The notes under the pieces: generated by a model
Databases searched by the model: none
The model's input: only the letters and a program-made list of their open reading frames with translations
Told to the model about the DNA's origin: nothing
Translations under genes and position numbers: made by a program
From: Tolypothrix bouteillei VB521301
Lineage (GTDB): Bacteria > Cyanobacteriota > Cyanobacteriia > Cyanobacteriales > Nostocaceae
Reading direction: 5' to 3'
NCBI RefSeq assembly: GCF_000760695.4
Contig: NZ_JHEG04000001.1
Location: 9,248,935 to 9,312,934 of the forward strand
Length of the DNA stretch: 64,000 nucleotides
Shown here: positions 53,870 to 56,649 of the stretch, piece after piece
How the letters are laid out: each line of letters opens with the position of its first letter
How positions within the stretch are numbered: the first letter of the stretch is position 1

Positions 53870-54109
53870 ATTCGGGAAGCGATCGCACTCTTGTTCAAAT
53901 TATCAATTCTTACAACAGCCCATTAAAAATCTATTACACTCTATATTCCATTGTAGTATCATGTAGAGAAACTTGATTACAAATACTACAAGAGTGCTGA
54001 TAGGTCGATTATCTTCAACTGACAAGAGCGCGATGCATTGCCGATGGCTATTAGTTCGCTAAGCGCCCTCTCACTTCTCAAAAAAATCAAAAAATTTTGT
54101 AGTACACCC

Positions 54110-54138
54110 TTGACACTCTGTAATATAATATGTAGTAT
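54110..54138 (+). promoter_or_regulatory. Candidate promoter of the tRNA array / intron region
   Basis: TTGACA (54110-54115) lies 17 nt before TAGTAT (54133-54138). TGTAGTA occurs several times around it (about 54099, 54131, 54142) and once inverted near 53986, which could be a binding site for a regulator. The position fits a single promoter for the long tRNA transcript. Confidence 0.4.
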
Positions 54139-54153
54139 GTATGTAGTAAAGCA

Positions 54154-55215
54154 GTGCGATTCGTTCTCTCAAAACCTAACTTTGTAAAGTGGAGTTCTCC
54201 ATATCAAAGAATTAGGGGGAGAGAGGGAAAGGTTACATAACCTTTTACAACTTAGTACTCTTGTAGGTTCAATTCCTACCACCCAAACCCAAGGGTTGAA
54301 TTCATAGCCCAGATTTAACAGGTTGGCAACTGTTACTTTCGGTGCATGGGTTAAATGCGGATAATGGGTAGTCACCTCCCCAAATCTCTGCAAGAGTTGG
54401 TAGACATGGATAACGTACAGTGAATGCAGTACAACTCGTCGTAATACTACGGGAAACGAAAGTGACTGAGAATAGTCCTCGGATGACTCTATTGGACTAA
54501 CCAGAGTGGGGAGAGTCTAGGGAATTATCACCCCAATGCGCCCTACCTAAGAGTTGCACGTCCCCGATACCAGAGTTAGGTTATACAGACTGTGGCTAAG
54601 TGCTTCGTAGCCATGTATGGGTGTCTAAACCTCGGCGGAGACTGCAATCCTAAATTTACCGCGAAAGGAGTGCTAGGAACGAAGTAACTTGTTCAATGCT
54701 ATCGGATACATGTTAATTACTGCTAACCGACAATTGAATAGGAACAACCTTTGAGGCAAATTGCTTCCATAGCAGTAATCCTAACTGAAAACGATAAGGT
54801 GAGCCAAACCGCACGGTTGAACAACAGGGATATCCTGAGAAGCCAATGCCCTAAGTAATGTTAGGGATATGCTGACGCAGGATAAGCGGTTGTGGAAGCT
54901 TCCAGAATAGTAACTCCTGATAAGCCTAATACATACTTTCGGGTAATGTGGGATGAATTCTATGCGTACAGGGTAAACGATTGACTATACCGTAATTGTC
55001 CGGTAGTAAAGGCGACCACAAAACGTCGAACGGTCTAATAGCCCCAAGGCGGTACAAGGAAAGGGTGAAATAGTAGAAGCCAAGGTCAAATTGCGAGTAA
55101 TCCATACGACTATCTTTGACACAAGACCACACGCAGGAGCCGAATGAGATTGGAAACTCTCATGTTCGGTTCTGAATGAGAGGTGAAGGAAAGCGATTTC
55201 CTCATCGACTCTAAC
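54154..55215 (+). ncRNA. ORF-less group II intron at the head of the tRNA array (5' end uncertain)
   Basis: Domain V is clear: GAGCCGAATGAG ... CTCATGTTCGGTTC (55137-55172), the GAGCCG...CGGTTC stem with a GAAA-type loop. A domain VI-like hairpin follows and the 3' end probably lies at CTCTAAC (about 55215). Upstream, motifs common in bacterial group II domain I are seen (GGTGCATGGGTTAAATGCGG, then GTAGTCACCTCCCC, about 54341-54380). The 5' end may be the GTGCG at 54154, but a tRNA-like piece lies between, so it could be nearer 54320. There is no reverse transcriptase ORF, so the intron would need a maturase from elsewhere. Confidence 0.65.
54219..54292 (+). tRNA. tRNA-like remnant before or inside the intron
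   Basis: A good T-arm (GTAGG TTCAATT CCTAC) and a CACCCAA acceptor-like end are visible, with a stem AAAGG/CCTTT enclosing an 8-nt loop containing CAT. The 5' acceptor strand and D-arm are poor. It is probably a decayed tRNA gene of the array. Confidence 0.3.
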
Positions 55216-55284
55216 CAGACAACCTCTCAAAAAGGCAAAGTGCAAACACTTCCGTTCCTTGAAAAGTTAATAACTGCCACATTT

Positions 55285-55383
55285 GGGGATGTAGCTCAGT
55301 TGGTCAAGAGTGCCTGTCTGTCGAACAGGAAGTCGCGAGTATCTCCTTCGGAGACGCTTCGCGAACAAATCTCGTCATCCCCG
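55285..55383 (+). tRNA. tRNA-Asp (GTC) with a repeat inserted in the T-loop
   Basis: Acceptor GGGGATG/CATCCCC and discriminator G; D-arm GTAGCTCAGTTGGTCAAGAG; anticodon stem CCTGT/ACAGG, loop CTGTCGA (anticodon GTC). T-stem GCGAG (55335-55339)/CTCGT (55371-55375) encloses 31 nt instead of 7. The extra sequence is the dispersed repeat ATCTCCTTCGGAGACGCTTC followed by GCGAACA. Without it, a normal T-loop would remain. Whether the tRNA works depends on removal or tolerance of the insert. Confidence 0.8.
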
Positions 55384-55386
55384 TGT

Positions 55387-55460
55387 AGCCTTGTGGACGA
55401 ACAGACAAGTCGTTGTGCCTCTCAAGCACTAAGAAGCGGGTGCAACTCCCGTCAAGGCTT
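55387..55460 (+). tRNA. tRNA-Glu-like (CTC), somewhat degenerate
   Basis: Acceptor AGCCTTG/CAAGGCT, T-arm GCGGG TGCAACT CCCGT and encoded CCA (55461-55463). The anticodon stem GTGC/GCAC with loop CTCTCAA gives CTC. The D-stem is only GAC/GTC and the outer anticodon pair is mismatched; T54 is G. It may be a decaying gene. Confidence 0.55.
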
Positions 55461-55468
55461 CCAAATAT

Positions 55469-55539
55469 GTCCAGGTTGCCTAACGGTAGGGCGTTGGTCT
55501 GCAAAACCGACTGTGCGAGTTCAATTCTCGCCCTGGACT
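55469..55539 (+). tRNA. tRNA-Cys (GCA)
   Basis: Acceptor GTCCAGG/CCTGGAC, discriminator T, encoded CCA following; anticodon stem TTGGT/ACCGA with loop CTGCAAA (GCA); T-arm GCGAG TTCAATT CTCGC. It has an intact cloverleaf without insertion. Confidence 0.85.
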
Positions 55540-55547
55540 CCAAATAT

Positions 55548-55837
55548 TGCAGCGCAGTTTAATAGCTAGTGCCCCAAGCTCATAACTTGGCGGCAGTTGC
55601 TACAACGCTTGGAACCCCCCTTCGGGTTCACCAGTCCCCAGGGCGCGGGAAACCCTTTTATAGCAATGAGCGTGCCACGCTGCGCTATCAGGGCTGGATT
55701 CACTGCAAAGCACTGCCTTGTCGCGGGTCCTTACGGAGACGCTATATGCAAGGCACACGCAAAGCGCACGCGCACGCTTCGCAATGCTGCAGGCTATGCC
55801 CGTAAGGGCTATACGCGAACAACTCCCGTCGCTGCGA
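55548..55837 (+). tRNA. tRNA-Met-type (CAT) split by large repeat insertions
   Basis: The 5' half TGCAGCG...CCAAG CTCATAA CTTGG (anticodon CAT) and the 3' half GCGGG T [insert] ...AACTCCCGT CGCTGCG A + CCA fit one tRNA: T1-G72 plus six acceptor pairs. Between the anticodon arm and the T-arm, and within the T-loop (55728-55824, about 97 nt), lie several dispersed repeats (CCCCCTTCGGGTTCACCAGT, CCTTACGGAGACGC, CGTAAGGGCTATACGCGAAC). The T-loop insertion point is the same as in tRNA-Asp. Confidence 0.5.
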
Positions 55838-55841
55838 CCAA

Positions 55842-55941
55842 TGCACAAATGGTGTAACGGAAGCATTAAGGTCTCTAAAACCTTTGGTCAAGGTATCTCC
55901 TTACGGAGACGCACTTGCGTTCAAATCCAAGTCTTTTGCGT
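55842..55941 (+). tRNA. tRNA with anticodon CTA (amber-reading), repeat in the variable loop
   Basis: Acceptor TGCACAA/TTTTGCG (one mismatch, one wobble); D-arm GGTGTAACGGAAGC; anticodon stem AAGGT/ACCTT with loop CTCTAAA, so the anticodon is CTA (codon UAG). The body resembles tRNA-Gln. The variable region carries TATCTCCTTACGGAGACGC; the T-arm would be CTTGG-like TTCAAAT CCAAG with an extra C. It may be a suppressor tRNA or a mutated tRNA-Gln. Confidence 0.6.
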
Positions 55942-55945
55942 TAAT

Positions 55946-56019
55946 GGTGCCGTAGGCAAATTGGTAAAGCCACCTGTCTTTCAAGCAGGAGATTGCGGGT
56001 TCGACCCCCGTCGGCACTG
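55946..56019 (+). tRNA. tRNA-Glu (TTC)
   Basis: Acceptor GGTGCCG/CGGCACT, D-arm GGCAAATTGGTAAAGCC, anticodon stem CCTGT/GCAGG with loop CTTTCAA (TTC), T-arm GCGGG TTCGACC CCCGT. No insertion. Confidence 0.85.
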
Positions 56020-56112
56020 CTGACTTGAGTTGGAATGACAGAGAGCAGGAAAACTGGTCTCTTCATTCCTTTATTTCACCCAGAAATCTCAAGTAATGAC
56101 TCCAAGATGTAT

Positions 56113-56196
56113 AGGTCGGCTTGCAAGCTTGGTCTAGGAAACGGTCTGTAAAACCGCCGAGAAAGAGCATTGCTAGTTTAATTCTAGCCCGACCCA
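56113..56196 (+). tRNA. tRNA-Tyr (GTA), long variable arm
   Basis: A class II tRNA: acceptor AGGTCGG/CCGACCC (first pair A-C mismatched), anticodon loop CTGTAAA (GTA) on stem CGGT/ACCG, a long variable arm after CGAGAAAGAG, and T-arm GCTAG TTTAATT CTAGC. It is slightly degenerate but recognisable. Confidence 0.7.
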
Positions 56197-56202
56197 TTAC
56201 GG

Positions 56203-56287
56203 AGAGATTGCTATTGGCAGAGCAAGCTGTTTGCGGTGCCTTCGGCGGGCGTAAGCGCTAACGCAGTCGTGTATGCAAGTTCATAAT
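56203..56287 (+). tRNA. Decayed tRNA-like element (Asn-like) with repeat
   Basis: GCTATTGGCAGAGC resembles a D-arm and CTGTTTG an anticodon loop (GTT), but the 3' half is broken by a repeat (GGTGCCTTCGGCGGGCGTAA then GCGCTAACGCA). No matching acceptor or T-stem was found. Probably a pseudo-tRNA. Confidence 0.3.
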
Positions 56288-56383
56288 GAGAACGTGGTGT
56301 AACGGGATAACACGTCAGTCTACGAAACTGTTCGCGTAGCGTGGCGTAGCCATGAAGTGAAGGTTCAAGTCCTTCCGTTCCGC
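56288..56383 (+). tRNA. tRNA-Arg (ACG) with repeat in the variable loop
   Basis: Anticodon stem CAGT/ACTG with loop CTACGAA (ACG); T-arm GAAGG TTCAAGT CCTTC is perfect; acceptor GAGAACG/CGTTCCG has five good pairs. Between the anticodon and T-arms lies TTCGCGTAGCGTGGCGTAGC then CATG, the reverse-complement end of the same repeat family as in tRNA-Asp. Confidence 0.65.
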
Positions 56384-56387
56384 CTTA

Positions 56388-56465
56388 TCCCCTGGTAGCT
56401 CAGTTTTGGTAGAGAGCGCTGGTCTGAAAAACCAGAGGTCGTCGGTTCGATTCCGACCTGGGGGA
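56388..56465 (+). tRNA. tRNA-Phe (GAA)
   Basis: Acceptor TCCCCTG/CTGGGGG (one mismatch, one wobble) with discriminator A; D-arm GCTCAGTTTTGGTAGAGAGC; anticodon stem CTGGT/ACCAG with loop CTGAAAA (GAA); T-arm GTCGG TTCGATT CCGAC. No insertion. Confidence 0.82.
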
Positions 56466-56474
56466 CTGGCACAT

Positions 56475-56547
56475 TGCCCTGTAGTGTAACTGGCAACATC
56501 CTTCGCTTTGAACGAGGAGATTCCAGGTTCAAACCCTGGCAGGGCAG
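56475..56547 (+). tRNA. tRNA-Gln (TTG)
   Basis: Acceptor TGCCCTG/CAGGGCA with discriminator G; anticodon stem CTTCG/CGAGG with loop CTTTGAA (TTG); T-arm CCAGG TTCAAAC CCTGG. It is the last clear tRNA of the array; all members are on the plus strand. Confidence 0.88.
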
Positions 56548-56649
56548 TCACATTATTCTCCTGTAACCCAACTGATAGCTTGGGGCAACCTAAGAAAGCG
56601 ATCGCGGCTATACTGCTGTATCACCAGCTAATTCCGCTCTTTGTTCGGT

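Follow-up and report, generated by a model that had tools for sequence, protein, structure and literature searches.

The trn array and its interrupted genes

The window, a stretch of 64,000 nucleotides from Tolypothrix bouteillei VB521301, contained a tRNA array at 55285–56549 (Table 1). The genome comprised 9.95 Mb in two contigs, and the array was located in the large contig. Intact array tRNAs of related genomes were aligned to the window with long insertions made cheap, and this alignment together with a reading of the sequence gave the slot order Asp, CTC, Cys, Met, Trp-slot (CTA), Glu, Tyr, Arg, Phe, and Gln. ARAGORN called six of the at least ten tRNA genes present, which indicated that a tRNA finder can miss insert-bearing genes. 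Rfam added tRNA-Asp and a match below the gathering threshold at 55843–55940. The cloverleaf stems and the slot order of the Asp and Arg genes agreed with those of related Nostocales trn arrays; the Trp-slot gene, with its weak T-stem, and the Met gene, judged by eye against intact Met genes, also belonged to their slots. The array was short, many slots being absent, and it contained diverged or multiply interrupted genes.

Table 1. Features of the trn array and its upstream region, in window positions.
Feature	Position	Strand	Basis or remark
trn-operon promoter region with two TrcR-like sites, TGTAGTAC and TGTAGTAT, 33 bp apart	54097..54138	+	loose pattern
Group II intron-like insertion, ~1.06 kb, between promoter and tRNA-Asp	54154..55220	+	ends approximate
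tRNA-Asp(GTC), T-loop interrupted	55285..55383	+	Rfam, 50.8 bits
Two-hairpin mini-element in tRNA-Asp	55341..55365	+	between T54 (55340) and C56 (55366)
Intact tRNA, anticodon CTC, T-loop TGC	55387..55463	+	ARAGORN
Intact tRNA-Cys(GCA)	55469..55542	+	ARAGORN and Rfam
Met(CAT)-slot tRNA, two interruptions	55548..55837	+	by eye against intact Met genes
Dispersed repeat, ~127 nt, variable region of Met gene	55591..55722	+	
Nested mini-repeats in Met T-loop	55729..55819	+	nesting read by eye
Trp-slot tRNA, T-arm apex interrupted	55843..55940	+	anticodon CTA at 55875–55877; 21.5 bits (below gathering)
26-nt mini-element, T-arm apex of Trp-slot gene	55894..55919	+	
Intact tRNA-Glu(TTC)	55946..56020	+	ARAGORN and Rfam
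tRNA-Tyr(GTA)-slot gene, diverged	56112..56197	+	alignment 66/83
tRNA-Arg(ACG) with variable-loop insert	56288..56384	+	ARAGORN and Rfam, 39 bits
22-nt mini-element, reverse orientation, after anticodon stem of tRNA-Arg	56331..56352	-	
Intact tRNA-Phe(GAA)	56389..56466	+	ARAGORN and Rfam
Intact tRNA-Gln(TTG)	56474..56549	+	ARAGORN and Rfam

According to the excerpt of PMC10272220, the trn operon of Anabaena sp. PCC 7120 comprises 26 genes on the delta plasmid, is repressed by TrcR and is induced by translation stress. None of the loci compared bore the name of that array. As far as the excerpt describes it, the window array resembles the Anabaena array in being a long tRNA array that starts with Asp, has relatives on Nostocales plasmids and carries TrcR-like sites upstream; it differs in its position in the large contig, its six ARAGORN tRNAs, a group II intron-like insertion in the leader and four interrupted genes. 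With a loose pattern, derived from the TrcR motif TGTAGTAT in the same excerpt (PMC10272220) and used without a chance control, 21 of 55 other array loci had a pair of sites 33–34 bp apart, at −121 to −129 and −88 to −96 relative to their first tRNA. In the window the intron-like insertion had shifted the sites to −1188 and −1155 of tRNA-Asp, the 33-bp spacing being preserved. The insertion matched RF00029 at 55135–55215 (52.1 bits, gathering 40) and had GTGCG at 54154, and the leader of a related array (L125) aligned on both sides of it. If this element splices, the trn leader would be restored. Judged from the sites upstream of tRNA-Asp, the array is a putative TrcR-regulated trn operon.

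The T-loop of tRNA-Asp spanned 55340–55370 (31 nt), and in the Rfam T-loop model it measured 30 nt instead of 6, i.e., 24 extra. The insert was matched at 7.2e-9 by R1, a covariance model built on insert-bearing T-arms and trained partly on this very sequence, and the body of the gene was 0.99 identical to the L125 gene. The Met T-loop spanned 55728–55824 and was 97 nt long in a separate measurement; the automatic assignment had given this gene no T-stem. A sequence-only reading of this DNA had given T-loops of 31 and about 97 nt, interrupted directly after the first T-loop base, and both were confirmed. Its common end GCGAACA was present in the two genes, where the T-loops read T54...GCGAAC followed by AAAT or AACT, but it is not one unit: GCGAA is the end of the repeat and CA.. 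belongs to the tRNA. The same reading had placed repeats in the variable loops of tRNA-Arg and of a "tRNA-CTA." This was correct for tRNA-Arg, and inserts at or near the same place were found in L009, L013, L131, and L134. The best alignment of the CTA gene was with the Trp slot in related arrays (69/73 to L125), and a paralogous Trp gene in the second array of this genome (L045) had a clean T54[..]C56 insert; the two together put the CTA-gene insert at the T-arm apex, and the variable-loop placement was rejected. Thus the T-arm apex was hit in three genes, Asp and Met as proposed and also the Trp-slot gene. The latter is atypical, since TTC was retained after the insert, unlike the strict cases below. 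Its T-stem (CAAGG/CCAAG) had three standard pairs by eye, and its body scored 0.83 with four broken pairs in a comparison that placed the T-stem elsewhere. The second Met insert of ~127 nt, in the variable region, was absent from the earlier list; its part at 55602–55722 matched G000:C1:4578865-4578984 at 87%.

The CTC tRNA at 55387–55463 and its counterparts in the same slot elsewhere usually had an insert-free TGC T-loop, with G replacing U55, as seen in 27 of the 34 CTC genes with a recognised loop.

Recurrence, structure and target of the inserts

Array homology yielded 56 loci with 1,058 ARAGORN-called tRNAs: 14 of 18 matching plasmid records, stretches from genome searches (40, of which L130 was removed because it duplicated L003), another two arrays of the same genome and the window. 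One of the genome searches had the window array including its inserts as its query. Some of the 56 loci shared a genome; these were grouped in the conservation comparisons but entered the plain counts singly. L004 was near-identical to L005. Another 32 arrays were picked by matches to R1 (40 stretches minus eight, namely four duplicates, one piece of 300 bases and three with two or no tRNAs).

The strict form of the insertion was defined as T-stem, T54, A...A, and C56. It was found in 61 tRNA genes in 27 of the 56 homology-chosen loci and, when the 32 R1-chosen arrays were added, in 136 genes, which represent 31 anticodon types and lie in 57 of 88 arrays. The 71 T-loop candidates of the 56 loci comprised the 61 strict cases, five deviating T-loop inserts, one misplaced case and four miscalls; ten of the 71 lay outside the strict set, and five were left out of the conservation comparison of tRNA bodies. 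TTC followed the insert in two of the five deviating genes, the window Trp-slot gene and Leu-TAG of L045. At E ≤ 0.01, R1 matched 76 of 243 genomes within the order and 125 of 192 within the family, counts that include some weak partial matches other than whole T-arms and stem from a model containing part of what it finds. Among 59 loci from the R1 searches (L239–L297), 47 had five or more called tRNAs in a span of 1.5 kb, and a tRNA-family match was found in all 11 that were scanned of the remaining 12. A motif written from the inserts had 70 matches in 144 kb of array DNA (one in one shuffle) and nine in 179 kb of flanks (four in one shuffle). This enrichment (Fisher P = 2e-13) occurred at similar TTCR counts of 2,972 and 3,099, and six of the nine flank matches were tRNAs at array tails. 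T-loop inserts are not peculiar to the window array.

Two further partial arrays of the same genome carried inserts (L045 7700–10060 and L046 7363–7956), and a nested insert start was common to both in Leu(GAG) by eye.

The insert length was 19–27 nt in 125 of the 136 strict genes, and most of the longer ones looked nested. The insert classes were built alike, from an A, a first hairpin whose loop is TNC, a second hairpin and a closing A. The T-stem and hairpins paired in 93.3% of cells vs. 73.1% in shuffles, T-stem pairing being a selection criterion, and the covariation score was 0.611 vs. 0.243. In hairpin helices 2 and 3, 90.4 and 84.0% of the cells were paired, respectively, and every pair showed changes on both sides. 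Two of five whole-structure measures were not above shuffles, namely pairs changed on both sides (54/500) and further pair types (260/500).

Dispersed copies, 41 matches of class A and 90 of class B, were found in 16 genomes; at least 18 of these 131 matches lay in the fetched arrays and the genomes were partly array-selected, which makes the count no neutral estimate. None of the 131 lay in the genome of the window, where a relaxed class D pattern (at most two mismatches) gave 14 matches, three of them in three tRNA arrays. The exact Asp pattern occurred there once, so a high-copy repeat in this genome was rejected, and the elements reach their greatest abundance in genomes other than that of the window. 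The Asp slot was interrupted in eight arrays by six element classes (by eye). That one slot can hold different classes from array to array indicated independent events.

The insertions followed the rule TTCR to T[insert]CR, in which the middle T (U55 in T-loops) was nearly always lost. Fifty-five class A and B sites were read, 14 in array tRNAs and 41 outside; at the latter, T preceded in 35 and R followed the C position in 37, the C being part of the search pattern and several sites sharing one repeated context. By eye, the empty site was TTC both in tandem units (L203, L211, and L219), where the interrupted unit was one T short, and in a CAATTCATGAATTG-type hairpin (L215 and L225), where one T was gone after insertion. 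Nested copies obeyed T[..]C inside the hairpin loops of older copies (L009 Tyr, L011 His, and L145 Cys). The same loss of T at tandem repeats, T-loops and nested copies shows that the rule belongs to the element and not to the tRNA. Inserts of opposite orientation were seen by eye in 13 array tRNA genes (Arg-ACG variable loop, five; His D-loop, four; Phe anticodon, three; Arg-TCT, one), and those in Phe anticodons, the Arg variable loop and the His D-loop lay at YGAA, the complement of the target, which argues that DNA is the target. The site preference that the sequence-only reading had suspected from two genes is therefore strongly supported and general, since the rule held in the T-loops of more than half of the arrays (57/88) and at non-tRNA sites.

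Intact array tRNAs offered 952 TTCR sites in T-loops and 751 TTCR/YGAA sites elsewhere (234 + 517), and the inserts were distributed as 61 strict cases at T-loop sites vs. some 13–20 (by eye) at the others. As a simple ratio, the T-loop was about two to four times richer per site than the rest of the array tRNAs. This excess could be explained by a preference of the element, by tolerance of the site or by both. A hairpin loop as a general target requirement was weak outside tRNAs: a flanking stem of at least 5 was present at 7 of 27 non-tRNA sites vs. 14% of controls, and one of at least 6 at 5 of 27 vs. 5%.

Deletion of an insert would leave a T54-A55-C56 loop. Such a loop was found in 2 of 1,515 full-length tRNAs (L134 1539–1615 and L313 856), both of the Glu slot with the T-loop TACAAGT or TACGAAT. 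They are possibly footprints of a deleted insert; the L313 case (CTC slot) comes from an array chosen for inserts, and the loop of that slot is usually TGC. This loop was rejected as a frequent scar, because nine of the first ten cases were misread Gly variable loops and two remained.

Origin and fate of the inserts

Nostoc is said to contain SDR elements (small dispersed repeats) of 21–27 nt; as reportedly described by Elhai et al. in Genome Res in 2008, they are palindromic with compensatory changes, nested in their own copies and present in heptamer-like tandem repeats. Compared by description and not by sequence, the inserts resemble them in size, host group, palindromic make-up, nesting and occurrence in tandem repeats: they were ~20–27 nt, dispersed and multicopy, with a common secondary structure and compensatory changes apart from the two measures of five given above. 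The hot spot in T-loops and the change of TTCR to T[..]CR were derived in the present analysis. Introns in tRNA genes are of group I in bacteria and of the bulge-helix-bulge type in archaea. The inserts are similar to them in lying within tRNA genes, three in the Phe anticodon, but in the strict cases the canonical sequence is not restorable, and copies exist outside tRNAs. Because they are mostly 19–27 nt, the inserts are too short for a catalytic core. The 2008 paper of Elhai et al. is cited in the excerpts of PMC3733652, PMC3116915, and PMC2884548, of which the first two also describe REPIN/REP elements as very short, non-coding palindromic mobile DNA linked to RAYT transposases. As far as these excerpts go, the inserts are alike in being very short and palindromic and in having no coding capacity; they differ in that no GTAG or CGTC tag was seen and in the loss of one target T. 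No prior report of T-loop insertions in tRNA genes was found in the literature searched, to which the original SDR description did not belong.

The best explanation, to which we give a probability of about 0.65, is the recurrent insertion of SDR-like mini-elements, at the DNA level, into a T-loop hot spot of redundant arrays. The inserts would be copies of very small mobile elements, mostly 19–27 nt with two tandem hairpins, which are dispersed in Nostocales and related genomes and probably moved by an enzyme. They would enter DNA at TTCR and leave T[insert]CR with the middle T lost. Since the T-loop of nearly every tRNA gene offers a GTTCR target, arrays of ~25 spare tRNA genes would be hot spots, and redundancy with housekeeping tRNAs would keep the hits from being purged. 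Some hit genes, such as Met here, would take nested insertions and then degrade, and a few may shed the insert again and keep U55A. Insert-bearing genes would presumably yield no normal tRNA. Intact Asp, Trp, Arg, and Met genes are present elsewhere in the genome. The sequence-only reading had named such duplicates as a sign of plain pseudogenes; they discriminate poorly, because such arrays as a rule duplicate housekeeping tRNAs, as the excerpt on Anabaena indicates (PMC10272220).

The main alternative is that array tRNAs with inserts are still made and used, which we consider unlikely. In one variant the pair of hairpins would be extruded from between U54 and C56 with the other elbow contacts kept; in the other the insert would be excised and its flanks joined again, which leaves U54-A55-C56 or U54-C56. 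The exact placement of the inserts would suit them, and so would the conservation of the tRNA bodies, whose median identity to the nearest other genome was 0.955 in insert-bearing and 0.961 in intact genes. Within 27 arrays, insert-bearing genes differed from intact ones by −0.013 in identity (P = 0.07) and by +0.13 in broken pairs (P = 0.66); the extra broken pairs of some bodies speak for inactivation. R57, A58, and Y60 were retained in 136 of 136 strict genes, A58 being favoured by the caller, and TrcR-like sites were kept in arrays with four to five strict inserts (L009, L010, L129, L134, and L140). Related arrays also carried similar inserts in one slot, where the divergence was 0.148 vs. 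0.163 expected for intact genes (66 comparisons, P = 0.23); as the pairs are not independent and similar inserts may be separate events, this is no proof of age. Bodies about as conserved as intact ones leave room for tolerance or processing in some genes; if the insert-bearing genes are dead, their youth or turnover is needed. Against use of these tRNAs, inserts also occurred in the Phe anticodon and other loops, and the same rule held outside tRNAs. Splicing back to a normal T-loop, which the sequence-only reading had considered, was not supported: 61 of 71 candidates fit T54-A...A-C56, with an A before C56 and U55 lost, so that excision leaves at best UAC or UC, cannot restore UUC and, in contrast to that of a tRNA intron, does not give back a canonical tRNA. 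Folding as support for extruded inserts was rejected, as the T-stem was absent in all three predicted folds (Asp and two other genes), and in that of tRNA-Asp the insert paired with the 5′ T-stem strand; a fourth sequence came from the wrong strand and was set aside. We judged inactivation with turnover to be more likely than function. The specific proposal that these are functional, stress-induced tRNAs, in which a two-hairpin module replacing U55 is carried or lost by RNA processing, is a shade less probable than the general one. If it holds, some of the smallest mobile elements known would have given bacteria a class of tRNAs, and of tRNA-like RNAs, whose T-loops are extended or reprocessed.

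It seems quite improbable that the elements entered transcripts of tRNAs or tRNA mimics as RNA and returned to DNA through reverse transcription. Array motif matches were mostly on the sense strand (67/70), inserts were also found in clusters of tRNA-like RNAs, and Elhai et al. in 2008 reportedly suggested an RNA intermediate for SDR elements; but the orientation is fixed by the target itself, TTC being on the sense strand of the T-loop, and the antisense inserts in 13 array tRNA genes and the insertions in tandem repeats and other hairpins speak for DNA. Plain decay of the arrays, with T-loop clustering from chance short words and no mobile element, is highly improbable. The window array, with its many missing slots and its diverged or multiply interrupted genes, would fit it, and decay as proposed by the sequence-only reading finds partial support in this array and in the intact Asp, Trp, Arg, and Met copies elsewhere; order-wide, insert-bearing tRNAs were not clearly more degraded. 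The same element families elsewhere in genomes under one insertion rule, 136 strict cases in 31 anticodon types and 70 motif matches vs. 1 in a shuffle are at odds with chance, and recurrence in other genomes speaks against decay as the full account.

With these inserts a precise target rule can be assigned to a very small, mobile-looking element, and the arrays offer a natural assay system with many similar, presumably dispensable targets and empty sites readable in related arrays. It becomes testable how gene-less elements of 20 nt move, and whether a tRNA survives a structured T-loop insert.

Unusual anticodons and tRNA-like clusters

The Trp-slot gene of the window had CTA in place of CCA. 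This amber anticodon recurred in a separate 72-nt gene after Trp in L006, L008, L009, L141, and L145, and CTT was found in others. The CTA genes might act as suppressors in stressed cells. In L280, a tRNA gene with a T-loop insert had by eye the apparent anticodon TTA (ochre-like).

T-loop inserts were also present in clusters of tRNA-like RNAs (L271 1450–1600, L257, L246, L243, L277, and L282), for which Rfam gave no Y-RNA match. By eye these RNAs were permuted, in the order anticodon-like arm, T-arm, closed acceptor stem and D-arm, and they recall the tRNA mimics of bacterial Y RNAs. Matches to YrlA (Y-RNA-like) in L256 and L297 were far below gathering. In L285 (1207–1724) and L256, clustered tRNA bodies of 121–138 nt in all carried a long module replacing the anticodon arm (by eye).
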